From Roseivirga sp. (GTDB lineage Bacteria > Bacteroidota > Bacteroidia > Cytophagales > Cyclobacteriaceae): 64,000 bases of DNA. The notes under the pieces are model-generated. The model was not told the DNA's origin. It saw nothing but the letters and a program-made list of their open reading frames with translations, and ran no database searches. Shown in pieces: positions 43,584 through 45,003 of the stretch. The stretch is taken from NCBI GenBank assembly GCA_021404565.1, contig JAAWWF010000083.1:18747-82746 (forward strand). The letters run 5' to 3'. Made by a program: the position numbers and the translations under genes. Each line of letters starts with the position of its first letter. The stretch's first letter is position 1.

Positions 43584-43610
43584 ATGATCAAATGGCTTAG
43601 AAAAATGAGA
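43584..43610 (+). repeat. 27-bp direct repeat, left copy
   Basis: It matches 44098-44124 at 26 of 27 bases. It contains ATG and the first nine codons that match the start of the lipoprotein gene at 44098. After it, this copy reads on for 11 codons to a stop at 43644, leaving an orphan start. Confidence 0.9.
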
Positions 43611-44097
43611 GCTCAGTATAAATCACGGATAGCCCCCGGCCCCTAAAGGGGTGCCTGTAAGACGCTGTTATGGAAAATAACAAACAATTTCCAGGGATGC
43701 ATGCCGGAGCCTCTGCAAGAATTTTCCAGCTTGCCAGAAAGCTCAGGGACAATATGACCATTCCCGAAAAGAGGCTTTGGGAATTTCTAAAGAGTAGACC
43801 CAATGGTTTCAAATTCAGAAGACAGCACCCCTGTGGTGAATACATTCTTGATTTTTACTGTCATGAAAAACGACTCTCAATTGAAGTGGACGGAGAAAGT
43901 CATAACAAAGCCAATCAAGTGGAAAAGGATGCTACCAGAACTGATTTTTTAAGACAAATTGGTATTAAGGAATTAAGATTTCAGAATGAGGACGTTTTGA
44001 ACCAATTGGAACGAATAGTCTCAGCAATAACCCTTGAACTGTGCGAGGGATCCCTTCAGGGAAAACAAGGGCGCGCGTTGGAAGAAAACAAAGAGAA
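43611..44097 (+). mobile_element. Presumed inserted DUF559 element
   Basis: The 487 bp between the two 27-bp copies holds only the DUF559 gene with its short flanks, including the G/C-rich word CCCCGGCCCCTAAAGGGG at 43634-43651 which often borders DUF559 genes. Removing this segment and one copy of the repeat restores an uninterrupted 5' end of the next gene. No transposase is inside, so if mobile it moves by its own endonuclease or by other means. Confidence 0.6.
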
Positions 44098-44101
44098 ATG
44101 A
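43670..44101 (+). CDS. DUF559 (Vsr-like) endonuclease-domain protein
   Basis: This 143-residue protein has the DUF559 nuclease fold related to very-short-patch-repair endonucleases. It opens with ARKLRDNMTIPEKRLWEFLKSRPNGFKFRRQHPCGEYILDFYC, where Glu and Asp sit in the PD-(D/E)xK positions, then LSIEVDGESHNK with the Glu, then RTDFLRQIGIKELRFQNEDVL. The stop codon is the TGA of ATGATC, which belongs to the duplicated target sequence, so the gene's end is defined by the insertion. The last about 15 residues come from flanking G-rich sequence and are not part of the fold. Confidence 0.88.
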   Translation: MENNKQFPGMHAGASARIFQLARKLRDNMTIPEKRLWEFLKSRPNGFKFRRQHPCGEYILDFYCHEKRLSIEVDGESHNKANQVEKDATRTDFLRQIGIKELRFQNEDVLNQLERIVSAITLELCEGSLQGKQGRALEENKEK

Positions 44102-44124
44102 TCAAATGTCTTAGAAAAATGAGA
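44098..44124 (+). repeat. 27-bp direct repeat, right copy
   Basis: It matches 43584-43610 with one change (T for G at 44109). It forms the first nine codons of the lipoprotein gene. With the left copy it brackets the DUF559 segment exactly, as a target-site duplication would. Confidence 0.9.
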
Positions 44125-45003
44125 CAACGGAGTACGCCTCATTACAAAACCACACCACTTGGCCTAGTGGTCATTCCGCTAATCCTGACTGCTTTTTCCT
44201 GCAATCAATCCCCGAATATGGATACAACCTATGACTACGGTACCGAAAGTGATTCAGCACGCTATTATTTTATACTAGGCTGGGAAGAAATTTTAGACAA
44301 TGGTCGCTGGACTGAATCGGAAACGGCTTTTCGCAAAGCCATGGAGTTTGATGGAGACTGGGCAGTGGGCAAAAGTCTGGTGGGTCGGATTACGCAAAAT
44401 CTGGAAGAGCGACAGAAATTGATTATAGACTTAGAAGCTGTGAAAGATAAGGTCGGTATGGATGAGCGCATATTGCTGGATATTTTCATGCCCTCTATGC
44501 AAGCTATGAACAACCGGGATCAGGGAATCAGCACCTCCCCTGAGGACCGTAAAGCGAGAAGAACTCAAGCTGAGGCTAACTTTCGCAGATTCGTTCACAA
44601 GTACCCTGAGGAAAGCTATATCAAAGCAGAGTACATAGAGACACTCCATGCCAATCATGGCGCAAAGACCGCCCTGGACAGCTTAAATATACTAGCTTCT
44701 GAGGAGCAGACTGTTCTAGGTTTCTATATCAGCTACCGAGCGACATTAGGGCTTGAGCTCGGAAACACAGAATACGCCACAGAAAAGCTTCAGTCATATC
44801 GCTCTCTTTTCTCCGACCTCTCTTATACCACCACCTATATGCTGCAAGCTCAGATTTTAATGGCCCAAGACAGTCTTCAAAAAGCCAGCGAGCTGGTCAA
44901 CAAAGTAGTGACTATGGACCCCAATCATTTGATTGCGGTGGGTATGCAAAGGAGGATTAAGGCTGAGCTTGAAAAGGAAATCAAATCGAATCCCGGAAAC
45001 TAA
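44098..45003 (+). CDS. Lipoprotein with TPR-like repeats
   Basis: The start is at ATG 44098, which lies in the duplicated repeat. An earlier in-frame start at 44041 would lie inside the DUF559 gene. The 301-residue product has a long basic N-terminus, then a lipobox (ILTAFSC, Cys about 37), then TPR-like helices (GTESDSARYYFILGWEEILDNGRWTESETAFRKAME, YATEKLQSYRSLFSDL, DSLQKASELVNKVV). It is probably an outer-membrane scaffold. The promoter is presumably now separated by the DUF559 segment. Confidence 0.78.
   Translation: MIKCLRKMRQRSTPHYKTTPLGLVVIPLILTAFSCNQSPNMDTTYDYGTESDSARYYFILGWEEILDNGRWTESETAFRKAMEFDGDWAVGKSLVGRITQNLEERQKLIIDLEAVKDKVGMDERILLDIFMPSMQAMNNRDQGISTSPEDRKARRTQAEANFRRFVHKYPEESYIKAEYIETLHANHGAKTALDSLNILASEEQTVLGFYISYRATLGLELGNTEYATEKLQSYRSLFSDLSYTTTYMLQAQILMAQDSLQKASELVNKVVTMDPNHLIAVGMQRRIKAELEKEIKSNPGN

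Follow-up and report, generated by a model that had tools for sequence, protein, structure and literature searches.

The segment 43584-44124 of the window (the whole stretch of 64,000 nucleotides of Roseivirga sp. DNA analysed here) is probably an inserted element, compact and with structured ends, which carries DUF559 and is accompanied by the copy of a gene start. We observe a duplication, an intact nuclease frame, ends common to a second copy in the same genome, and an architecture as well as gene-end copies which recur at other loci. The element would consist of one recognised gene (DUF559, with a predicted Vsr/homing-endonuclease fold) and of short inverted ends, each made of a hairpin plus a third block. 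It would have landed at the start of a DUF6090-type gene, so that the first 27 bp of this start now lie on both sides, and the right copy would read into a lipoprotein frame which remains open. We infer that the DUF559 nuclease makes a cut or nick close to the target and that the break is then repaired, by filling in of staggered ends or by template switching, with insertion of the element and duplication of the sequence from the break to the gene end. Selection would retain those insertions which spare the host gene, either through a copied end or by landing in frame. A wider idea, which we put forward only tentatively and consider rather doubtful, is that the BoxC/triplex repeats owe their mobility to the DUF559 enzyme, i.e. 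that there are transposase-less single-gene elements which enter genes in frame or with a copied gene end while the host gene survives.

The repeat pair and the DUF559 gene of the window

As the initial annotation had claimed, a 27-bp sequence occurs twice with one mismatch: the two copies (Table 1) agree at 26 of 27 bases, differ by a single G/T exchange and lie 514 nucleotides apart from start to start in the repeat search. It is the only direct pair in the 64-kb window with 26/27 matches at offsets between 30 and 2999. In the complete 8.57-Mb genome the 27-mer is found at these two places only, even if three mismatches are allowed, and the reversed-pattern control gives no match. A chance origin of the pair was rejected because of this uniqueness in the window and in the genome. 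Compared with six other gene starts of the MI..RKIR type in the genome each 27-mer shows 5-8 base differences; the two copies are therefore each other's closest relatives. The common ATG and nine codons described earlier are seen in both copies, which translate as MIKWLRKMR and MIKCLRKMR, respectively (ATG and eight further codons each), and the identity begins exactly at the ATG. The left copy is indeed an orphan start, opening a frame of 20 codons which is ended by TAA. The right copy opens the 301-aa lipoprotein frame, and its ATGA contains the TGA of the DUF559 gene; in these two respects its description as the real start of the lipoprotein gene holds, but it may not be the ancestral start. 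The 27-mers do not abut the ends of the element: the nearest terminal motif is 22 nt away on the left and 26 nt away on the right.

Table 1. Features of the DUF559 locus in the window (positions refer to the window).
Feature	Position	Strand	Remarks
Left 27-mer, orphan gene-start copy (MIKWLRKMR)	43584..43610	+	orphan frame to TAA at 43644-43646
Left terminal motif	43633..43651	+	outer C block, then hairpin CCCC-TAAA-GGGG
DUF559 endonuclease-type gene, 143 aa	43670..44101	+	conserved E33, D61, E72, D74, H78, D87
Right terminal motif	44051..44071	+	hairpin TCCCT-TC-AGGGA, then G block; inside the DUF559 3' end
Right 27-mer	44098..44124	+	TGA stop of DUF559 and start of the next frame
Lipoprotein-type frame, 301 aa from 44098	44098..45003	+	TPR matches weak, below the Pfam cut-off

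The gene between the 27-mers is assigned to DUF559 (PF04480) with an E value of 5.8e-32 and 110.2 bits (curated cut-off 20.6), and it is one of three DUF559 places in this genome. In 72 aligned relatives the residues E33, Q52, D61, F62, E72, G75, H78, D87 and R103 are invariant and D74 is conserved in at least 90%; the window's protein keeps the six residues given in Table 1. A profile search of the PDB returns 3hrl (E 2.7e-32) and 3r3p, annotated as 'mobile intron protein' (E 2.3e-6), whereas matches ranked fifth or lower, with E 0.24 and above, were treated as chance. The predicted structure (mean pLDDT 85.7) comes nearest to 3hrl and to the catalytic domain of I-Bth0305I (3r3p; TMt 0.78), which we take to be an EDxHD homing endonuclease, while the match to Vsr is weak. 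The catalytic domain is thus related to that of a homing endonuclease by profile and by fold. Due to the conserved residues and these relatives the product is a probable DNA nuclease, most likely one akin to homing endonucleases. YcjD of E. coli K-12 and NGO0050 (3hrl) are DUF559-type proteins like that of the window, and their database records name no function.

Apart from DUF559, the ORF list and the Pfam search recognise no gene between the 27-mers and hence no transposase gene; an overlapping minus-strand frame of 82 aa has no Pfam match at 1e-6. The earlier characterisation as a putative endonuclease gene without transposase agrees with this.

Element ends and hairpin motifs

The terminal motifs, which consist of two hairpin arms and a third G/C block, were called in the window by a loose definition. 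The ends are supported by a relative in the same genome, C81, where an array of DUF6090-type genes contains a DUF559 pseudogene. Its protein is 50% identical to the window's and is decayed (late frame start, N at D61 and D74, D at E72). The similarity between both elements starts at 43629, and for left against left end as well as for right against right end the score is reached by none of 1000 shuffles. The left gene-start copy is absent from C81. Compared with each other, the left and right ends of the window's element are only weakly similar (their score is attained in 21 of 1000 shuffles), their single-strand folding is unremarkable (z 0.32 and -0.17), and across the whole window the loose motif is not enriched, with 8 left-type and 14 right-type occurrences (overlaps counted) compared to 6.4 and 5.8 in shuffles.

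Motifs of this kind are frequent around DUF559 elsewhere. By the loose definition, 59 of 81 loci (80 from named genomes plus the window) carry a hairpin and a third G/C block on both sides, compared to 16 of 228 displaced controls; after dropping loci with short flanks the numbers are 51/71 and 11/289. For the best 80 Bacteroidota places, motifs on both sides were found in 54 of 78, where the matching control is too small for a comparison (8 pairs, one with both). An inverted match between the flanks with a score of at least 14 is present at 36/75 DUF559 loci and 7/696 controls, and the Lewinella locus L102 has a long, almost perfect inverted repeat at the element ends (0/1000 shuffles). At the level of whole genomes we counted a narrow motif, CCCCN{2,3}CCCCN{3,6}GGGG, and PF04480 in the same 148 Bacteroidota genomes. 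The motif count is above its control by three or more in 13 of the 78 genomes that have DUF559 and in 13 of the 70 that lack it, so there is no correlation between DUF559 and the narrow motif in this set. The occurrence of DUF559 relatives across bacteria, in or beside genes and often flanked by hairpins, suggests a compact mobile element that is able to leave host genes open.

Copied gene ends and in-frame copies at other DUF559 loci

The collection comprises 190 loci, including two pairs present in duplicate from two collections (L117/L021 and L133/L022), and 181 were usable after nine with short flanks had been left out. Plain direct repeats of at least 20 nt occur at 11 of these 181 loci and at 8 of 945 displaced controls, i.e. 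about seven times more frequently at DUF559. Flanking duplications, which the initial annotation had proposed to look for at other DUF559 genes with a length of 20-30 bp, are in excess but confined to a minority. Because the remaining 170 loci are without such a repeat, a universal target duplication was rejected. Among the 11 repeat loci, copies of gene ends are found in the window, at L192 and at one Algoriphagus site (L127, L129, L164); L216 has an exact intergenic repeat of 23 nt on both sides, and five loci (L115, L153, L198, L221, L239) are unexplained.

The Clp-type (clpB-type) gene at L192 has two orphan starts ahead of its real one. The DUF559 element follows the first orphan start, and a shorter element without DUF559 follows the second. 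The Algoriphagus element is situated behind an ABC-2 permease gene, whose 3' end recurs as an orphan copy to the right of the element, with a length of 22 nt in L127 (plus a further copy of 36 nt), 26 nt in L164, 20 nt in L129, about 30 nt in L104 and about 110 nt in L111. These loci represent one site in related species and are not independent. The closest DUF559 found in the genus (G009:C93, 54-55% identical to the window's) is separated from the next gene, an intact DUF6090 gene according to Pfam, by four decayed copies of this gene's start. The copies are identical at 42-44 of 66 bases (best of 2000 shuffles 30-33) and are arranged in tandem units, each of which pairs a start copy with a DUF559 3' end. 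The idea that this motif is unrelated to the DUF6090 start was abandoned on later comparison.

Copied gene ends at DUF559 are thus a real but minority feature. Since the copies run from about 20 to 110 nt, a target duplication of fixed length is not what these loci display. The proposal of an insertion with a long target duplication is supported as far as a compact insertion without transposase and the recurrence of gene-end copies are concerned; it is not supported as a general rule, because the copies vary in length, belong to a minority and were not seen at the in-frame copies described below. As a separate observation, another short palindromic unit (CATCCGGAGATCCCGAT...) lies beside copies of the same permease gene end (L129:2601-2700, L127:3510-3600). 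This gene end may therefore be a hot spot for several elements.

In 24 of the best 80 Bacteroidota places DUF559 lies within stop-free frames of more than 260 aa. A Pfam scan was made of 16 in-frame proteins, 14 of these 24 and two of the 80 loci from named genomes. DUF559 is found in RecG (L225, L227), MetH (L199, L205), ValRS (L122), HsdR (L191), HsdM (L195) and an Eco57I-type methylase (L222), and it is joined to N-formylglutamate amidohydrolase (L212) and to an amino acid kinase (L170). In the leucyl-tRNA synthetase LeuRS of Bacteroidota it precedes the editing domain in L186, L188 and L220 and lies behind it in L208, L213 and L219, so that this enzyme has been hit at two different places in different Bacteroidota. 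In the MetH linker the insert measures 156-171 aa in four loci, compared to linkers of 13-18 aa in 15 loci (30 family loci were fetched; 15 without a match to two anchors were not counted). In the printed flanks, inspected by eye, the in-frame DUF559 is bordered by stretches which resemble translated motif sequence. The 11 loci with long plain repeats include none of the 24 in-frame loci, and no copied gene sequence was seen by eye in the flanks of the latter; repeats are present in L184, L185 and L191 and are mostly made of motif sequence. Intein or splicing families were not found in any of the 16 scanned proteins (10 + 6).

Origin of the copied start and relation to known systems

The 27-mer resembles the starts of DUF6090-type genes, and the C81 and G009:C93 elements also precede such genes. 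With up to two mismatches the start motif occurs at 17 forward and three reverse places in the genome (controls 2 and 0). Eight places have no more than one mismatch and comprise four DUF6090-like frames, one of them confirmed by Pfam, the window's pair, an asparaginase frame and a frame of 22 codons. Six lipoprotein orthologue starts (L007-L012) were compared by eye: five are without a start of the 27-mer type, and L011 has a TTG-led start, LIKLLNRH, whose loose similarity is ambiguous. Orthologues gave matches in 11 of 59 genomes including the window's own, and because the others are at most 67% identical their starts can not be placed with certainty. A second in-frame ATG at 44119, which may be the native start of the lipoprotein gene, also gives a signal ending in Cys (by eye). 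Because of the DUF6090 resemblance, the orthologue starts and this alternative ATG, a DUF6090-type gene may be the source from which the present start was copied or brought in, and this start is then possibly not ancestral.

Two further frames of this genome open in the same way. The asparaginase-type frame (PF00710, 38265-38552) begins with ATGATCAGATTCTTTAGGAAAATCCG (MIRFFRKIR), a DUF6090-type start; the gene looks broken or mis-sequenced, because reading appears to resume in another frame from 38583. In L062 (G000:C59:197293) a DUF6090-type start is fused to a short lipoprotein-like frame.

An empty site with a single 27-mer and no DUF559, which had been expected in close relatives, was searched via the lipoprotein orthologues in the 11 genomes with matches, and no clean one was found. 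The nearest orthologue locus (G009) has no DUF559 and instead a Y1-transposase-type stretch and other palindromes. This gap between the LytTR and lipoprotein genes (L007:1002-1235) contains the terminal part of a Y1 (IS200-like) transposase frame (PF01797) together with the palindromes. Likewise, in two E. coli strains that lack a ycjD match sapF is followed by an efflux operon, and these strains too gave no clean empty site.

The reading as a compact element is weakened by the lack of a clean empty site, by the weak match between the window's ends and by the missing link between DUF559 and the narrow motif at genome level, and other explanations have to be weighed. The 27-mers could be the starts of two adjacent DUF6090-type (MIKFFRKIR) genes, the first of which lost its body while DUF559 fell in between, so that the duplication would reflect the history of a gene family and no insertion. 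The recurrence of the start motif in the genome, the four DUF6090-like frames among the eight closest places, the gene array at C81 and a match that begins exactly at the ATG all speak for this scenario. We nevertheless consider it unlikely, as the two copies differ from each other by one base and from the six other starts by 5-8, as a DUF6090 signature within 1.6 kb of DUF559 was found at only three of 190 loci (L020, L034 and L023, the window not being one of them), and as start copies beside DUF559 recur at L192 with a Clp-type gene.

Alternatively, the element might have brought the start motif from a DUF6090 locus at both of its ends, with the ATG at 44119 as native start of the lipoprotein gene. 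The five orthologues lacking such a start (with L011 loosely similar), the tandem units of G009:C93 and the presence of the same start in front of asparaginase-type and short lipoprotein-like frames are in line with this, but in neither the C81 nor the L192 element is a DUF6090 start present at each end, and the orthologue starts are uncertain at the given identity; we regard such a transport as quite improbable. Least credible is a chance similarity or a plain tandem duplication in which the nuclease had no part. Plain repeats do occur in displaced controls too, but they are much rarer there than at DUF559 loci, the window has no second pair of this quality within 3 kb, and gene-end copies recur at G009:C93, L192 and in Algoriphagus. 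The insertion of a compact DUF559 element accompanied by a copied start is thus the reading we prefer.

Several known systems resemble such an element in part. In REP/RAYT systems short palindromes flank one small nuclease gene and the copies are clustered, and the DUF559 element is alike; the window differs in having a PF04480 gene and no Y1 transposase between the palindromes. Rickettsia palindromic elements are palindromic DNA which is read in frame inside proteins, as is the case with the in-frame DUF559, but to our knowledge they carry no nuclease gene. The homing endonuclease I-Bth0305I is alike in profile and fold; as a difference, no intein or splicing family turned up in the 16 scanned in-frame proteins. 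As to insertion sequences, no transposase gene is recognised between the 27-mers, and the copied gene ends do not form a target duplication of fixed length.

The BoxC/triplex motifs, also termed PIT, are similar to the ends of DUF559 elements in combining a hairpin with a third G/C block and in forming inverted pairs in five MG1655 cases. They are abundant and tied to genome instability, and 23 copies have been described in MG1655; this survey reports no mobility activities near them (Holder et al. 2015, PMC4666352). The window differs in that the consensus published for E. coli is nowhere matched in it and in that its own end pair is weak. Among the matches listed in a literature search of titles and abstract openings, mostly outside subscription journals, no link between DUF559 and repeats appeared. 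The association of DUF559 with such motifs (E. coli ycjD, Bacteroidota and Chloroflexi loci) offers a concrete candidate enzyme for them, and from the in-frame copies in core enzymes and the copied gene ends one would learn how selfish DNA can enter genes without killing them.

E. coli ycjD loci match the published consensus: copy 9 of MG1655 (1351204-1351239) lies between fabI and ycjD, a DUF559 gene, and the other side of ycjD has no copy of the consensus. Inspection of this MG1655 locus by eye (L264:1030-1900) further revealed a long inverted repeat on the 5' side and, downstream, a decayed repeat of the ycjD 3' end which lies before BoxC copy 9.
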